64,000 bases of DNA from Clostridia bacterium (lineage in GTDB: Bacteria; Bacillota; Clostridia; Oscillospirales; CAG-382), in the NCBI GenBank assembly GCA_017397955.1, contig JAFQHL010000040.1, positions 1-64,000 of the forward strand, given 5' to 3'. Below the pieces are notes generated by a model. It did not search any database, had not been told where the DNA came from, and saw only the letters and a list, made by a program, of their open reading frames with translations. This document shows positions 31,113 through 38,310 of this stretch, in pieces; positions within the stretch are counted from its first letter, which is position 1; each line of letters begins with the position of its first letter. The translations under genes and the position numbers were made by a program.

Positions 31113-32168
31113 TTATGTAACTGAAATAATAATATCGCATTTGTTGGGTATATTGAAATGTTCAAAATATCTGTTTTCCATAGGTATCCATTCATTAAAA
31201 AAACGCTCTGCCAATGTCTCGGTGTTTCTCTTCATAATGCGCTTCTTTTGCGAGACACGGTCTATGTCCAAAAAAACAGATAAGTCATAGCTTTTATTCA
31301 AATATGGATGAGTAGAGTATACCCCTTCTATGACACTGAGTTTTTTTGGAAAGACAGTGATTGCATCAATTAGCCTTTTCGTAGAGCAGTCATAGGGTCT
31401 GTAAACGACTTTTTCGCCTGCCCACAGCGGTGCAACTATTTCTTCTGAAAAACGCTCTCGGTCAAAATTCCCACCTATCTCAGCCAATCGAGCAGCTGTT
31501 CTTTGCTCAGGTCGTAAGAAAAAGTCATCTGTGTGAAAAGTGTTGCAATCATACAACTGTTCAAGCGTTTTGCTAAGTGTGGTTTTTCCGCTTGCGCTTC
31601 TGCCCTCTATTGCTAACTTAACGTTTCCTTTTTCAAGCATACTGTCAAGCTTTGCAAACAGTTTTATAAATTGAATGTATCGGTTTGAGATAACTCTGTA
31701 CGCAGGCTTATATTCTGATCTGAATTGTTCGGAATGGTGTAAGGCACAGAATCCTTCGTTTTTCCATTTGGTAACTTCTTTATTAAACTCATCGTACATA
31801 AAGGGAAGTTTGCCTTCACATATAAGCTCTTTTACAGCATTAAGCTTTGTTTCCAATAGATTTACGTTGCTATTGTTATCCTTTGCGGAAAGAAAAAACA
31901 GCTTTCCCAAGGTATTTGCGCTAAGCCCGTATTGTAAAAACGACAAACTTACACGGCTGTATTCTCCATCCAACGGTTCAATAAGCTCGTTATTTAGGGT
32001 GTTAAGATTTGCAGTTTCGCTATTTATGCGTTCTATAATTTGTTCTGTTGAAGACACTGCGTGTTCGCAACCAAATGTACTCTGATGCAAAAATTTTAAA
32101 ATATCTTGTATTTGCAATAGGGGATAGCTGTTATAGTGATTTATTATAAGCTCTTTTGTGTTGTACAT
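31113..32168 (-). CDS. Uridine kinase-like P-loop kinase with an N-terminal accessory domain
   Basis: 351 residues. Residues 1-185 form an alpha-helical domain (YNSYPLLQIQDILKFLHQSTFGCEHAVSS...) that I have seen only next to such kinases; its role is unknown. Residues about 188-350 are a P-loop kinase of the uridine kinase/phosphoribulokinase type: VKLAIEGRSASGKTTLSK, then CNTFHTDDFFLRPEQR, the ERFSEEIVAPLWAGEKVVYRPYDCST segment and LSVIEGVYSTHPYL. It starts one base from the stop of the ECF S-component gene, so the two are coupled. This suggests the kinase traps the imported compound, perhaps a nucleoside or vitamin. Confidence 0.8.
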   Translation of the reverse strand: MYNTKELIINHYNSYPLLQIQDILKFLHQSTFGCEHAVSSTEQIIERINSETANLNTLNNELIEPLDGEYSRVSLSFLQYGLSANTLGKLFFLSAKDNNSNVNLLETKLNAVKELICEGKLPFMYDEFNKEVTKWKNEGFCALHHSEQFRSEYKPAYRVISNRYIQFIKLFAKLDSMLEKGNVKLAIEGRSASGKTTLSKTLEQLYDCNTFHTDDFFLRPEQRTAARLAEIGGNFDRERFSEEIVAPLWAGEKVVYRPYDCSTKRLIDAITVFPKKLSVIEGVYSTHPYLNKSYDLSVFLDIDRVSQKKRIMKRNTETLAERFFNEWIPMENRYFEHFNIPNKCDIIISVT

Positions 32169-32701
32169 TATTTTCTCCCGTTAACACGGATTTTTTCCGT
32201 TAGAATAACGATTATAGGAATTAAAACTATCTGTAAAATTATACCTGGGATTGCGTTTGTAACAGCACCTGCCCAAAAAGCTGAAAAGCTAAAAGCGGTA
32301 CCTTTTATCCCTAAGCAAGCGAATGTTGCAGCGCCCCAAACAAGCCTGCCAAGTATCATAGATATTATAAGAGTACAGTAAATGTATAGCTTTTTACGTG
32401 GTAATACTCTATAAATTATGCCGCTGAAGGCACCATAAGCTGCTAGTTCAAACGCCATACACACAGCTGTAGGGAATAGAGACGGCATACCTAACGTTAG
32501 CGAGCGCAAAAGCGGTGCCGCAATACCAACTGCGCCACCCCATTGCCACCCGCATATAAATCCGCATAGAAAAATGGGTATGTGCATAGGGCAAAGCATA
32601 GCACCTATCTCTGCTATTTGTCCCGTTAAAAATGGAAACAGATACGCAAGCGCGACAAATAATGCCGATAAAATCATTTTTGTGGTTTTGTTAAACTTCA
32701 T
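32168..32701 (-). CDS. ECF transporter S-component (substrate-binding membrane subunit)
   Basis: 177 residues, about five or six membrane segments. The start MKFNKTTKMILSALFVALAYLFPFL carries the Ala-rich first helix used by S-components to bind EcfT. LCPMHIPIFLCGFICGWQWG and APLLRSLTLGMPSLFPTAVCMAFELAAYG are typical of a vitamin-transporter subgroup. The substrate is not identifiable. No ecfA/ecfT gene is nearby, so it would share a genome-wide ECF module (group II). It is preceded by a 125-base leader with a terminator-like hairpin, and followed directly by a kinase gene. Confidence 0.8.
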   Translation of the reverse strand: MKFNKTTKMILSALFVALAYLFPFLTGQIAEIGAMLCPMHIPIFLCGFICGWQWGGAVGIAAPLLRSLTLGMPSLFPTAVCMAFELAAYGAFSGIIYRVLPRKKLYIYCTLIISMILGRLVWGAATFACLGIKGTAFSFSAFWAGAVTNAIPGIILQIVLIPIIVILTEKIRVNGRK

Positions 32702-32826
32702 TTTCCTACCTCACAAAATTAAAGGTATCATTACCTCTGCAGAGATAATGATACCTTCATAGTATCGTTTTTAAAATAATAGGCACTGACGAAACTTCTG
32801 TTTCCCACGCTATCCTTCAGGACAGC
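32702..32826 (-). promoter_or_regulatory. Riboswitch-like leader of the ECF S-component/kinase operon
   Basis: In the minus-strand transcript a compact 5' part contains hairpins CTGTCC-TGAA-GGATAG and GAAAC-AGAA-GTTTC. Near the gene, a 12-bp stem (32722-32757; arms AAGGTATCATTA and TAATGATACCTT) is followed by TTTAATTTT. A segment GATAC...GTATC just 5' of it can pair with the left arm and would exclude the terminator. I find no match from memory to TPP, FMN, cobalamin, THF or preQ1 classes. Confidence 0.6.
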
Positions 32827-32832
32827 ACTGAC

Positions 32833-32861
32833 ATTATAACAGACAAATAAAACACTGTCAA
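32833..32861 (-). promoter_or_regulatory. Promoter of the ECF S-component/kinase operon
   Basis: Perfect TTGACA (32856-32861), 17-base spacer, TATAAT (32833-32838) on the minus strand. The -35 box lies right behind the DUF3842 stop codon. Confidence 0.85.
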
Positions 32862-32862
32862 G

Positions 32863-33276
32863 TTATTGTTGGCAAATAACATAACTTAGTTTAGTCATTA
32901 CATCCTCAATAAGCATGGTCGTATTAAGTTCCTTGACACCTGCAATTAAATTGTCACACTTGTTCATGGGAATAAGTATGCGTGTAGCATTGGATTGCGC
33001 TACGGCAAGAGCCATTTTCGGTGTCACTTCACCTGTTAAAGAATCGGCAATAACTATACCTATAGGACCGATAATTACGTTTGCTTTCCTGCATGCGACA
33101 ATAACGGGATTTTCGCCCGTAGCAGCGTTTTTTGCGCCGGCTTTAAGCATTGCGGCGGTAGCTGTGGAATTTGTTCCTATGGCTGTTACAACCGCATTAG
33201 CGTATCGCGCGGAAATCTCTTTAACAAGTTGTGCGCCTAGCATTCCGCCATGACCGTCAATAATTGCAATATTCAT
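32863..33276 (-). CDS. DUF3842 family protein
   Basis: 137 residues with a Rossmann-like start (MNIAIIDGHGGMLGAQLVKEIS) and AIGTNSTATAAMLKAGA, ANVIIGPIGIVIADSLTGEVTP. These match DUF3842, a small family of Clostridia with unknown function. It starts 6 bases past the stop of the first solute-binding gene (33283) without a clear own ribosome-binding site, so it is probably read from that gene's transcript. Its stop codon touches the next promoter. Confidence 0.8.
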   Translation of the reverse strand: MNIAIIDGHGGMLGAQLVKEISARYANAVVTAIGTNSTATAAMLKAGAKNAATGENPVIVACRKANVIIGPIGIVIADSLTGEVTPKMALAVAQSNATRILIPMNKCDNLIAGVKELNTTMLIEDVMTKLSYVICQQ

Positions 33277-33282
33277 GGCTTT

Positions 33283-34866
33283 TTATTTTGCGGCGTTTGC
33301 TTTAACCTTATTTACTGTAAGTTGAATATTCATCTCAATAAGGTCTTTCTGACCATCAACACGGGATTGGATATTGGTGTCAAGTTCTTCTATGATGTTG
33401 GTGGTGTTCCATTTGCCGCCGAATACCTGTCCAAGGTCATAAATGCGGGAGCCGTAAACTATGTCAAGTATTTCTGCGCTGTAGGGGTCACGTGCATCAG
33501 CCCTCTTAAGCTGCTTTTCATAATATTCGGGAGTCAAATAGTCCTTACTGTACGCGCCCAGTGCATCGATTATCGTACCGAGCTGTTGACCTGCTTCGCC
33601 CTGAGCATTGGCACCTGTGGGAACAAACAAAACGCTGGTGATGTGTGTGCCCATATTATGGTAATACCTGTCATCAGATGCATTGTACTTGGGAATGGGA
33701 AGGAATCCAAAGTCATCTTCCATATCTCTGAAGTAGGGAAGATGTATGGGAGCGCATACATAGAACAGACCTCTACCTTCTTTAAAAGCGTTAATTACGG
33801 TCTTTTCATAAACATCTTCGCCTTCATATTTGGAAACGTATTCAGGCAAGTTGCCAATAAGAACATCATTGGTGTTGAGGTAAAGATTAACTGCATCGGT
33901 AAGTGCTGCATAGCCTTCGCCGCTTGCAAGTTCAAACACGGGCTCGTCATTGGCGTTTTTGTCAACTATTCTGTTACCGCTTGCAAGGAAGTGGTTGTAA
34001 ACGCCACTTGTTTCGGAAAGCAAGCCGTAAACGTCAAATTCGTTTCTTACGCCGTCGGCGTTTGCATCGTAACCAAAGCCTGTAACCTCTTTAACGAAAG
34101 CATCAAAGGTCCATTCGCCTTTTAAAGCCATATCATACAGGTCTTGGGGATTGCCTCCGTTTTCGATATACAAATCCTTATTAAAGAACAAAAGAACAGT
34201 ACCGTCGTTATCGTAGGTATTGATATCACCGAGAGCATAATACAGCTCACCGCAGATGGAAAGGTCATCAACAGCGTTCTGGTCCCACCACGCTTGGTCA
34301 AGGTCAATGCCTAAATCCTTAAGGTCAACTAGAAGGCCGTCTTCTACGAATGCGTAGTAGTAGTAATAGGACTCAAAACAGAAGTCATATTCAGCTGTGC
34401 CGCCTAAAATGTCTTCGTTGAGGGCTGTACGGATTTCACCGGGGGTGTTGGTGCTCATTTCGCCGGTGATAGTGCAGTTATAGTTCTTCTGAACTTCATC
34501 AACAACCTTTTTCTTTGCAAGGTTGATGTTGGTCATTGTACCGTCTTCAGAGTCTTCCCAAATTACTTCACCCTGGAAGTCGATGGTGGGCTTACCATAG
34601 CCGAACCAACGCTGAAGAATGTAAAATTCACGACCGCCCATGTCGGTTGCTTCGGGAAGCTTGTCGGCATAAACAACATTGTCTTCCCCAATCTGACCAA
34701 CGCTGCTGTCAGAAACGATGCCGGAAATTACGTTACTGCTGTCATTTGTATCAACAGATTCAGCGGGTGCTTGCGAACTGTTTGCATTTTCTTCTGTTTT
34801 GCCGCAAGCTGTAAAGCAAACAGCAATCATAAGAAGAGCTAACAATGTGCATAGGATTCTTTTCAT
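33283..34866 (-). CDS. Extracellular solute-binding lipoprotein, paralog C
   Basis: 527 residues. Lipoprotein signal MKRILCTLLALLMIAVCFTAC, then a Ser/Asn-rich linker and a family 1-like solute-binding fold, with an EF-hand-type loop DANADGVRNEFDVYGLL as in many sugar-binding lipoproteins. It is one of three tandem paralogs (with 34991-36577 and 36727-38310). The three share near-identical blocks such as EATDMGGREF, GEVIWEDSEDGTMTNINLAKKK and YYHNMG. No permease or ATPase is near. It carries DUF3842 downstream. Own promoter at 34900-34928. The ligand is unknown, possibly an oligosaccharide. Confidence 0.88.
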   Translation of the reverse strand: MKRILCTLLALLMIAVCFTACGKTEENANSSQAPAESVDTNDSSNVISGIVSDSSVGQIGEDNVVYADKLPEATDMGGREFYILQRWFGYGKPTIDFQGEVIWEDSEDGTMTNINLAKKKVVDEVQKNYNCTITGEMSTNTPGEIRTALNEDILGGTAEYDFCFESYYYYYAFVEDGLLVDLKDLGIDLDQAWWDQNAVDDLSICGELYYALGDINTYDNDGTVLLFFNKDLYIENGGNPQDLYDMALKGEWTFDAFVKEVTGFGYDANADGVRNEFDVYGLLSETSGVYNHFLASGNRIVDKNANDEPVFELASGEGYAALTDAVNLYLNTNDVLIGNLPEYVSKYEGEDVYEKTVINAFKEGRGLFYVCAPIHLPYFRDMEDDFGFLPIPKYNASDDRYYHNMGTHITSVLFVPTGANAQGEAGQQLGTIIDALGAYSKDYLTPEYYEKQLKRADARDPYSAEILDIVYGSRIYDLGQVFGGKWNTTNIIEELDTNIQSRVDGQKDLIEMNIQLTVNKVKANAAK

Positions 34867-34899
34867 AGCAATTCTCCTTGTTTATTTGTTCTTGACAAA

Positions 34900-34928
34900 A
34901 GTATAACACTCCTTGCCTTTTATGTCAA
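34900..34928 (-). promoter_or_regulatory. Promoter of solute-binding paralog C
   Basis: TTGACA (34923-34928), 17 bases, TATACT (34900-34905), minus strand. The -10 region GTGTTATACT is shared with paralog B. Confidence 0.8.
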
Positions 34929-34948
34929 TATCAACAACAAAATATTAA

Positions 34949-34983
34949 AACGCGCCTTGTGACTAAAAGACACAAAGCGCGTT
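34949..34983 (-). terminator. Terminator after solute-binding paralog B
   Basis: AACGCGC-TTTGTG stem with its complement across a 9-base loop, followed on the minus strand by TTTTAATATTTT. Confidence 0.75.
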
Positions 34984-34990
34984 CAAAATG

Positions 34991-36577
34991 CTATTTAGCA
35001 GCGTTTGCCTTAACCTTGTTAACGGTTATCTGGATGTTCATTTCTATAAGGTCTTTCTGACCTTCAACGCGGGAAGCTATGTTGGTGTCAAGCTGTTCAA
35101 CCATGCTGGTTGTGTTCCACTTACTGCCGTAAACCTGACCAAGGTCAAATACGCGGGAGTCAAACACTATGTCGAGCACATCAGCACTGTCAGGGTCCTG
35201 TGCATCTGATCTCTTAAGCTGCTTTTCGTAATACTCGGGTGTCAAGTAGTCCTTGCTGTATGCACCAAGTGCATCAAGAATTATACCCATCTGCTGACCC
35301 TTTTCGCCTTTAGCGTTTTCGCCAACGGGGACAAAAAGCACGCTGGTGGTGTGTGCACCCATATTATGGTAGTATCTGTCGTCTGCCGCGTTGTATTTAG
35401 GAATGGGAAGAAAACCATAGTCGTCATCCATATCTCTGAAGAAGGGGAGATGGATAAGCGCACACATAAGGAATAAGCCTCTGCCTTCCTTAAAAGCGTT
35501 GCAGATAGGTTCATAATAACCGTCGCCTGTTCCGCCGTACTTGTCAAGGTATTGGGGAAGGTCGGTTACAAGAACGTCGTTGGAGTTAAGATAAAGGTTA
35601 ACAGCATCGGTAAGTGCCGCGTAACCGCCACCGTTGGGAAGGTCAAATATAGGTTCGTCATTTGCGTTTTTATCTACAATTTTGCTGCCGCTTGCAAGGA
35701 AGTGGTTGTACAAGCAAACTGTTTCGGTAAGCAAACCGTAAACGTCAAATTCATCTCTTGTGCCGTCGGAGTTTGCATCATGACCAAAGCCGGTAACGAT
35801 GTTCTTGAATTCTTCAAAGGTCCAGTCGCCGTTCTTTGCCATATCATAAAGCTCTTGAACGTTACCGCCGTTTTCGGAATACAAATCTTTGTTGAAGAGG
35901 AGTACGAATGTACCGTCGTTATCGTAGGTATTTATGTCACCAAGAGCATAATAAAGCTCGTTGCAGATAGAAAGGTCTTCAACTGCATTCTGGTCCCACC
36001 AAGGCTGAGAAAAATCAATACCCAAGTCCTTAAGGTCAACAAGAAGGCCGTCTTCAACGAACGCGTAGTAGTAGAAGTAGGACTCAAAACAGAAGTCATA
36101 TTCAGCGGTACCGCCGAGGATGTCTTCGTTAAGAGCGGTACGGATTTCACCGGGGGTGTCCGTGCTCATAATACCTGTAATGGTACAGTTGTAGTTCTTC
36201 TGTACTTCATCAAGAACCTTTTTCTTTGCAAGGTTGATGTTAGTCATAGTACCATCTTCAGAGTCTTCCCAAATAACTTCGCCCTGAAAGTCGATAGAGG
36301 GTTTGCCGTAGCCGAACCAACGTTGAAGAATATTGAATTCACGACCGCCCATATCTGTTGCTTCGGGAAGCTTGTCGGCGTAAATAACATTGTCTTCACC
36401 GATTTGACCAACGCTACTGTCAGAAACGATACCGGAAATAACGTTGCTGCTGTCATTGGTGCCAACGGATTCGCTGTTGTCGGCTTGAGAGCTGTTGTTT
36501 CCTTCCTCACCACCGCAGGCAACAAAACATGCCGCGATCATGAAAAGAGCCAACAACGCACACAGTGTTCTTTTCAT
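34991..36577 (-). CDS. Extracellular solute-binding lipoprotein, paralog B
   Basis: 528 residues. Lipobox AACFVAC at about residue 20, then GGEEGNNSSQADNSES linker, then the solute-binding fold. It follows paralog C almost residue for residue, apart from a few variable stretches near DLPQYLDKYGGTGDGYYEPIC (a small indel) and the loop near FEEFKNIVTGFGHDANSDG. Its own promoter and terminator make it a separate transcription unit. It encodes no membrane subunit, so it must deliver to a permease elsewhere or act as a surface binding protein. Confidence 0.88.
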   Translation of the reverse strand: MKRTLCALLALFMIAACFVACGGEEGNNSSQADNSESVGTNDSSNVISGIVSDSSVGQIGEDNVIYADKLPEATDMGGREFNILQRWFGYGKPSIDFQGEVIWEDSEDGTMTNINLAKKKVLDEVQKNYNCTITGIMSTDTPGEIRTALNEDILGGTAEYDFCFESYFYYYAFVEDGLLVDLKDLGIDFSQPWWDQNAVEDLSICNELYYALGDINTYDNDGTFVLLFNKDLYSENGGNVQELYDMAKNGDWTFEEFKNIVTGFGHDANSDGTRDEFDVYGLLTETVCLYNHFLASGSKIVDKNANDEPIFDLPNGGGYAALTDAVNLYLNSNDVLVTDLPQYLDKYGGTGDGYYEPICNAFKEGRGLFLMCALIHLPFFRDMDDDYGFLPIPKYNAADDRYYHNMGAHTTSVLFVPVGENAKGEKGQQMGIILDALGAYSKDYLTPEYYEKQLKRSDAQDPDSADVLDIVFDSRVFDLGQVYGSKWNTTSMVEQLDTNIASRVEGQKDLIEMNIQITVNKVKANAAK

Positions 36578-36610
36578 AGTTTCTCTCCTTGAAATCGTAT
36601 TTATAATTTA

Positions 36611-36639
36611 AGTATAACACTTTACGGTTCCGCTGTCAA
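36611..36639 (-). promoter_or_regulatory. Promoter of solute-binding paralog B
   Basis: TTGACA (36634-36639), 17 bases, TATACT (36611-36616), minus strand. Confidence 0.8.
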
Positions 36640-36677
36640 TACGCATAATAAAATACCGCAATTTTTTGACAACGAAA

Positions 36678-36706
36678 CACCCCCTGCGACGATGTTGCAG
36701 AGGGTG
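36678..36706 (-). terminator. Terminator after solute-binding paralog A
   Basis: CACCCTCTGC/GCAGGGGGTG stem with a 9-base loop, about 20 bases past the stop codon. Confidence 0.65.
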
Positions 36707-36726
36707 CTTCTATAGTTACGCAATTA

Positions 36727-38310
36727 TTATTTAGCAGCGTTTGCCTTAACCTTATCAACGGTAATCTGAATGTTCATTTCGATAAGGTCCTTCTGACCTT
36801 CAACGCGGGAAGCGATGTTGGTGTCAAGTTCTTCGATGATGCTGGTGGTGTTCCACTTACCGCCGAATACCTGACCAAGGTCAAATACGCGGGAACCGAA
36901 TACAACGTCAAGAACTGCTGCGCTGTCGGGATCCTGTGCATCAGATCTCTTAAGCTGCTTTTCGTAATATTCGGGAGTCAAATAGTCCTTGCTGTATGCA
37001 CCAAGTGCATCAAGGATTATACCCATCTGCTGACCCTTTTCGCCCTTGGAGTTTTCACCGGTGGGAACGAAAAGAACGCTGGTGGTATGTGCGCCCATAT
37101 TGTGATAGTATCTGTCATCAGATGCATTATACTTAGGAATGGGAAGGAAGCCAAAGTCGTCTTCCATATCTCTGAAGTAGGGGAGGTGAATGAGGGAAGT
37201 CATATAGAACAAGCCTCTGCCTTCTTTGAAAGCGTTGGTAACTGTCTTTTCATATACGTCTTCGCCTTCATACTTTGTCTTGTAAACTTCGAGGTCAGCT
37301 ATAAGTACGTCGTTGGTGTTGAGGTAAAGGTTAACTGCATCGGTAAGTGCAGCATAGCCTGTGCCGCTAGCAAGGTCGAATACGGGTTCGTCATTAGCGT
37401 TCTTATCAACGATCTTGCTGCCGCTTGCGAGGAAGTGGTTGTAGAGGTTAGAGGTTTCGGAAAGCAAACCGTAAACGTCAAATTCATCTCTTACGCCGTC
37501 TGCGTTTGCATCAAAGCCGAAGCCGGTAACTTCCTTGGTAAGTTCTTCGAAGGTCCATTCGCCGTTCAAAGCCTTGTCATAAAGATCTTGAATGTTGCCG
37601 CCGTTTTCGGTGTAGAGGTCCTTGTTGAAGAGAAGTACGAATGTACCATCGTTATCATAGGTGTTGATGTCGCCGAGAGCATAATAAAGCTCGCCGCAGA
37701 TAGAAAGGTCTTCAACTGCGTTCTGGTCCCACCAAGCCTGGTCAAAGTCGATACCTAAATCCTTAAGGTCAACAAGAAGACCGTCTTCTACAAATGCATA
37801 ATAGTAGAAATAGGATTCAAAGCAGAAGTCATATTCAGCAGTGCCGCCGAGAATGTCTTCGTTAAGAGCGGTACGGATTTCGCCTGCGGTATTGGTGCTC
37901 ATTTCACCGGTGATGGTGCAGTTGTAGTTCTTCTGAACCTCATCAAGAACCTTCTTCTTAGCAAGGTTGATGTTGGTCATAGTACCATCTTCAGAGTCTT
38001 CCCAAATAACTTCGCCCTGGAAGTCAATGGTGGGTTTGCCGTAGCCAAACCAACGCTGAAGGATGTAGAATTCACGACCGCCCATATCGGTTGCTTCGGG
38101 AAGTTTGTCAGCGTAAACTACGTCGTCGCCGCCAACCTGACCAACGCTACTGTCGGAAACGATACCGGAAATAACGTTGCTGCTGTCGTTAGAGCCTACA
38201 GATTCATTGTTGCCTGCTTGGGAGCTGTTGTTGCCTTCTTCACCACCGCAAGCTACAAAGCAAGCTGCGATCATAAAAAGAGCCAACAGAGCGCAAAGAA
38301 TTTTTTTCAT
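36727..38310 (-). CDS. Extracellular solute-binding lipoprotein, paralog A
   Basis: 527 residues; signal MKKILCALLALFMIAACFVAC with lipobox FVAC. The mature protein has the same domain order as paralogs B and C, including DANADGVRDEFDVYGLLSETSNLYNHFLASGSKIVDKNANDEP and the conserved end VEGQKDLIEMNIQITVDKVKANAAK. It lies first in the array on its transcription strand and has its own strong promoter. Tandem duplication from one ancestor is evident from protein and DNA similarity. I cannot tell which copy is oldest. Confidence 0.88.
   Translation of the reverse strand: MKKILCALLALFMIAACFVACGGEEGNNSSQAGNNESVGSNDSSNVISGIVSDSSVGQVGGDDVVYADKLPEATDMGGREFYILQRWFGYGKPTIDFQGEVIWEDSEDGTMTNINLAKKKVLDEVQKNYNCTITGEMSTNTAGEIRTALNEDILGGTAEYDFCFESYFYYYAFVEDGLLVDLKDLGIDFDQAWWDQNAVEDLSICGELYYALGDINTYDNDGTFVLLFNKDLYTENGGNIQDLYDKALNGEWTFEELTKEVTGFGFDANADGVRDEFDVYGLLSETSNLYNHFLASGSKIVDKNANDEPVFDLASGTGYAALTDAVNLYLNTNDVLIADLEVYKTKYEGEDVYEKTVTNAFKEGRGLFYMTSLIHLPYFRDMEDDFGFLPIPKYNASDDRYYHNMGAHTTSVLFVPTGENSKGEKGQQMGIILDALGAYSKDYLTPEYYEKQLKRSDAQDPDSAAVLDVVFGSRVFDLGQVFGGKWNTTSIIEELDTNIASRVEGQKDLIEMNIQITVDKVKANAAK

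Follow-up and report, generated by a model that had tools for sequence, protein, structure and literature searches.

The leader RNA that precedes an operon for an ECF transporter substrate-binding (S) component and a kinase is a conserved on/off switch that falls into no catalogued family and occurs across Clostridia in many genera. It was examined in a window of 64,000 nucleotides, the whole stretch of DNA that was analysed (positions 1 to 64,000 of contig JAFQHL010000040.1 of a Clostridia bacterium). The mechanism that we infer, at a probability of roughly 0.55, is protein-mediated antitermination that responds to the nickel-pincer nucleotide (NPN), with a DUF3842 protein as the most likely factor, acting over genes of NPN import and synthesis, including a salvage route for the NPN nucleoside. 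The features of the locus, in the direction of transcription, are as follows.

32863..33276, minus strand: DUF3842 (PF12953) protein of 137 aa, candidate regulator (E 2.6e-46)
32833..32861, minus strand: sigma-A promoter, TTGACA-17-TATAAT with extended -10 TG, 12/12 consensus matches
32809..32826, minus strand: hairpin H1 at the transcript 5′ end, GCTGTCC-UGAA-GGATAGC, 7 pairs
32791..32804, minus strand: hairpin H2, GAAAC-AGAA-GTTTC, 6 model pairs
32750..32766, minus strand: antiterminator-like hairpin H3, GATACU-AUGAA-GGTATC, its 3′ strand common to H4
32720..32759, minus strand: terminator hairpin H4, 18 pairs with the 4-nt loop UGCA, terminator-like by scan
32715..32723, minus strand: T-rich run TTTAATTTT 3′ of the terminator stem, from sequence and alignment
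32168..32701, minus strand: ECF transporter substrate-binding S component (PF12822), 177 aa (E 3.2e-14, Pfam cut-off passed)
31113..32168, minus strand: kinase of 351 aa, an unassigned N-terminal domain followed by a uridine/cytidine-kinase-like P-loop domain (PRK/uridine kinase family above cut-off)

The first-pass annotation described a perfect sigma-A promoter, and all 12 consensus positions indeed match, with a TG before the -10. Transcription is predicted to start near 32826 on the minus strand, which agrees with the leader of about 125 nt, up to the S-component gene, that had been proposed. The homologous leaders also start directly after a -10. The two small 5′ hairpins of that annotation are H1 (32826–32809) and H2 (32804–32791), and its GATAC and GTATC segments (32766–32750) are able to pair, the same strand being needed by the terminator. 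Its 12-bp stem and T-rich run are both present, but the stem has 18 pairs and the run TTTAATTTT is imperfect, weaker in the alignment than in most relatives. The CAGTGC/CAGTGCC words are peculiar to this genome; they are not conserved in the alignment of relatives and were rejected as a functional element.

The leader folds at -44.1 kcal/mol, compared with -26.3 +/- 3.4 kcal/mol in dinucleotide shuffles (z = -5.2; 0/200). H3 (-3.9 kcal/mol) is already formed when a stepwise fold has reached 96 nt, and the 16-pair core of H4 amounts to -21.0 kcal/mol. The two hairpins have one strand in common and are mutually exclusive. The leader therefore combines the elements of an attenuator, namely a stable stem, a U tract and a mutually exclusive alternative hairpin, and the H3/H4 overlap supports what the annotation had suggested, a terminator/antiterminator logic ahead of genes for an importer and a kinase. 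An additional pairing of GATAC with GTAT past the T-run was set aside as a minor feature (mean run 4.4, versus 3.6 in letter-shuffled tails and 4.29 in exchanged tails). The home genome carries a single copy of the RNA.

We collected 97 loci of S-component relatives, and about half of them carry the same leader at the same position. In an alignment of 38 distinct leaders, 24 of the 27 pairs of H1, H2 and H4 together show changes on both sides. Their covariation score is 0.52, versus 0.34 in shuffled alignments, none of 500 shuffles reaching 0.52, and it falls to 0.12–0.18 in slid alignments. Double-sided changes affect 7/7 pairs of H1, 6/6 model pairs of H2 and 11 of the 14 model pairs of H4, with 92.8%, 90.3% and 97.0% of cells paired, respectively; for H3, 98.9% of cells are paired and the covariation score exceeds all 500 shuffles. 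RNAalifold, unaided, recovers the same H1, H2 and H4. The linker between H2 and H3 is variable in both length and sequence, and no conserved core outside the hairpins was seen in the leader alignments. The window leader and nine relatives matched no Rfam family at the gathering or E-value threshold, which rules out a known Rfam riboswitch or leader family. The unassigned regulatory leader of the first-pass annotation thus stands, conserved with covariation before S-component orthologs. A hit to a known class and a lack of conservation had been named beforehand as the outcomes that would overturn it, and neither was found.

The loops of all four hairpins are of one type, AGAA, UGAA, UGNA or ANGAA with a closing C-G, which can be written C-[(A)NGAA or WGNA]-G, and the same loop occurs two to four times per leader. 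Counted before the S genes, such hairpins number 2.26 per 200 nt in 85 leaders scored as having the RNA and 0.09 in 56 upstream regions scored as lacking it; this census is descriptive and carries no test, because the labels rest partly on the leader itself. Conservation of a recurring loop and of little more would be expected if a multivalent RNA-binding factor selects it. In L005 and L129 all four loops are ACAA, a concerted departure from the usual type. A matching change in DUF3842 was not seen in L005, where the protein is ordinary at its conserved positions; this negative search for co-evolution of protein and loop speaks against the DUF3842 reading.

The RNA is not restricted to S-component genes. 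Divergent copies were found upstream of larE/larB/larC genes in five genomes from other gut bacteria, arranged as follows.

G406: DUF3842, RNA, FecCD-type transporter, larE, larB, larC
G439: RNA, larE, larB, larC, CbiM, CbiQ, CbiO
G222: DUF3842, RNA, two membrane proteins, larE, larB, larC
G208: RNA, larE, larB, larC, then a dpp/nik-type ABC transporter
G117: RNA at the S gene (L060), and a second copy at larB, larC, larE

LarB, LarC and LarE make NPN from NaAD (PMC7583248). LarE, LarB and LarC of G406 and LarB and LarC of G117 pass the NCBIfam cut-offs. FecCD, CbiM/Q/O or dpp-type transporters accompany three of the five loci, so that some copies of the RNA stand before larE-larB-larC of the Lar system (LarA/B/C/E, NPN synthesis) together with nickel-type transporters. 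The two small membrane proteins between the RNA and larE in L190 (8799–9535) have no NCBIfam match and are possibly a nickel transporter. In L271 (2250–8460) DUF3842 ends a lar-CbiMQO cluster, whose leader has several AGAA hairpins in a changed order and matches the model weakly. Several genomes have LarC in two adjoining reading frames (about 1–235 and 238–375), like the known frameshifted larC1/larC2.

A lead to a trans-acting factor comes from the distribution of DUF3842. Among genomes that have the S component, DUF3842 occurs in 47/50 that carry the RNA and in 4/44 that do not (p 2e-18), and this holds also where DUF3842 is far from the S gene. The three exceptions with the RNA and no DUF3842 are a leader at a contig edge (L043) and two near copies of one locus (L095 and L096). 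In a class sample of 293 evenly drawn genomes, 36% of which have DUF3842, all 11 strong matches of the refined model fall in DUF3842-containing genomes (p about 9e-6). Distant genomes with DUF3842, S and kinase have their best match, a weak one, directly upstream of S in 17/18 and 9/13 loci. Such a placement was seen in 26/31 class loci with DUF3842 versus 0/7 without, and in none of the 44 RNA-less loci of the first set. Weak matches in G187/G215, G333, G316 and G326 lie in the wrong context, with DUF3842 lacking in G187/G215, and were discarded as chance. A tree built from 141 S proteins gives about 21 independent pairs in which the RNA and DUF3842 change in the same direction, and no pair with opposite changes. 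Well-supported branches alone leave six pairs, of which three agree, none disagrees and three show no difference, a number too small to reach significance.

In most loci with the RNA, the gene next to the leader on its upstream side is DUF3842, and in others DUF3842 is convergent to the kinase; in several loci of many genomes (L292–L299) it is convergent with, and adjoins, the kinase gene. Many genomes devoid of DUF3842 retain S, kinase or LarC. DUF3842 is thus not required for the pathway as such, in keeping with a regulator. Where DUF3842 is lost the RNA goes too, yet S, kinase or lar genes stay, a pattern that makes DUF3842 the best candidate factor and that is not explained by a role as a pathway enzyme. 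The relation runs in one direction. At the lar operon, the RNA was undetected in 20/20 further genomes with DUF3842 and LarC, so the idea that it marks all lar operons of DUF3842-containing genomes was rejected; RNA implies DUF3842 and not the reverse, and in these genomes DUF3842 must have targets other than this RNA or serve a different function. The DUF3842 model (pLDDT 93.2) has a Rossmann-like fold, suited to the binding of a pyridinium nucleotide. The fold matches no known RNA-binding fold, which counts against a regulator role.

The S component scores 53.7 bits against PF12822 (cut-off 30.7). The kinase model (pLDDT 91.4) has a C-terminal domain that resembles uridine-cytidine kinases by structure match, the same uridine-kinase-type P-loop domain as in nucleoside salvage kinases (uridine/cytidine kinase, nicotinamide riboside kinase). 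It differs from these in its additional N-terminal domain, which is conserved (A3 columns 1–180) and has no Pfam family. In G341 and G404 this N-terminal domain stands alone beside the S component, and the kinase domain is elsewhere.

LarC is found in 6/80 genomes with the S component versus 141/293 in the background (p 1.4e-12). A LarA domain is present in 32 of these 80 genomes, the other 48 having no LarA that Pfam detects; about 30, the home genome included, have LarA and no LarC, and in no genome was LarA above the cut-off found together with LarC. Kinase and LarC are anticorrelated in the class sample (p 2e-5), and one or the other is present in 100/105 genomes with DUF3842 versus 94/188 others (p 3e-17). 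The rarity of LarC, the presence of LarA and the nucleoside-kinase C-domain are most simply read as import and phosphorylation of the NPN nucleoside. Thus, the S component and kinase likely form a salvage route for it, judged from gene content. In the S/kinase genomes without a recognised LarA, NPN may serve other proteins, or the salvage reading may be wrong; in larBCE-only genomes, NPN has already been suspected to serve other proteins (PMC11796402). The home genome encodes a full LarA on contig C21 (L281 2823–6435; 628 bits to nickel-dependent lactate racemase), which comes after genes resembling NAD-malic enzyme and malate/lactate dehydrogenase. In L272 (2481–2915), whose genome now carries the S component and the kinase, DUF3842 is immediately preceded by a larC remnant that retains only the C-terminal part, as though salvage had taken the place of synthesis.

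In the mechanism that we propose, a trans-acting protein, most likely DUF3842, would bind the repeated loops and hold H3 closed. Closure of H3 would prevent H4, and transcription would read through. The affinity of the factor would depend on NPN or one of its precursors, and a plentiful cofactor would thereby switch off import or synthesis. The S component would import the NPN nucleoside and the kinase would re-phosphorylate it for LarA-type racemases. A more specific proposal, to which we give somewhat less than even odds, is that DUF3842 represents a new class of NPN-responsive antiterminator that reads C-(A)NGAA-G loops and controls both larEBC with nickel import and the ECF-S/kinase salvage.

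The scheme is drawn by analogy with ANTAR leaders (EutV/eut, NasR, AmiR), in which at least two small hairpins likewise carry the same loop, the last one excludes an intrinsic terminator, and a protein stabilises the antiterminated form, as may also happen here. Here too, the terminator is overlapped by the hairpin that precedes it, H4 taking in the 3′ strand of H3. ANTAR targets, however, are hexaloops with A1 and G4 (PMC8934654). The present loops are of 4–5 nt, C-(A)NGAA-G or C-WGNA-G, that is AGAA/UGAA/UGNA tetraloops or ANGAA pentaloops, and by this loop rule an ANTAR target was excluded. DUF3842 is also no ANTAR domain, and the regulon here is NPN supply. The openly accessible literature that was searched mentions neither DUF3842 nor any RNA regulator, DUF3842 link or uptake/salvage route for Lar/NPN. 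If true, the proposal would describe for the first time a control of NPN supply at the RNA level, and it would assign a first role to DUF3842, present in about a third of the sampled class genomes. The predicted salvage route would explain the cofactor source of LarC-less bacteria with lactate-racemase-type enzymes, and NPN exchange among gut microbes becomes a testable idea.

The first-pass annotation took the leader for a ligand-sensing RNA. The conserved switch bears this out in part; direct binding of a vitamin is probably not the case, since conservation was seen in short hairpins only and in no aptamer-like core, DUF3842 co-occurs, and the controlled genes point to NPN and not to a common vitamin. 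Vitamin riboswitches before ECF S components (TPP, FMN, THF, preQ1, cobalamin) are likewise 5′ leaders with terminator logic, but the present leader has no Rfam match, shows no aptamer-like core in the alignments, is linked to a protein family and controls lar operons too. An RNA that itself binds NPN, its precursor or the imported compound and toggles H3/H4, with DUF3842 as an accessory NPN-binding protein, would suit the terminator/antiterminator architecture, the shortness of the leader and a regulon centred on a single cofactor. We think it unlikely, as the conserved part consists of simple hairpins with tetra- or pentaloops and a variable linker, one loop is repeated two to four times, and the RNA disappears with DUF3842 although the operon stays. 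ANTAR-like antitermination with DUF3842 as candidate regulator is favoured over it. The common loop motif, which indicates one trans-acting factor, would suit another RNA-binding protein, DUF3842 being a co-occurring enzyme or chaperone that handles NPN; its nucleotide-binding-like fold and the many DUF3842 genomes without the RNA speak for this. The joint loss of RNA and DUF3842 from genomes that keep S, kinase or lar genes, and the position of DUF3842, adjoining the leader upstream or convergent to the kinase, make such a division of roles improbable.

The imported compound might also be a vitamin unrelated to NPN, of the nicotinate or pantothenate type, the leader shared with lar reflecting NAD-precursor or nickel status. 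PF12822 spans many vitamins, 48 of 80 genomes have no recognised LarA, and NaAD is the source of NPN (PMC7583248). This reading is doubtful in view of the kinase/S genomes that lack LarC, yet about 30 of which have LarA, and of the RNA standing at biosynthesis genes in some genomes, at S/kinase in others and at both in G117. An accidental or unregulated terminator with chance hairpins draws on the imperfect T-run of this genome; covariation and conservation over many genera already refute it, and we give it almost no weight. NPN-responsive antitermination through DUF3842 remains the preferred reading.

Beyond the DUF3842 gene, one of three lipoprotein-like genes was scanned and gave no Pfam or NCBIfam match. 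The three are tandem paralogs of 527–528 aa, on the minus strand at 33283–38310 of the window.
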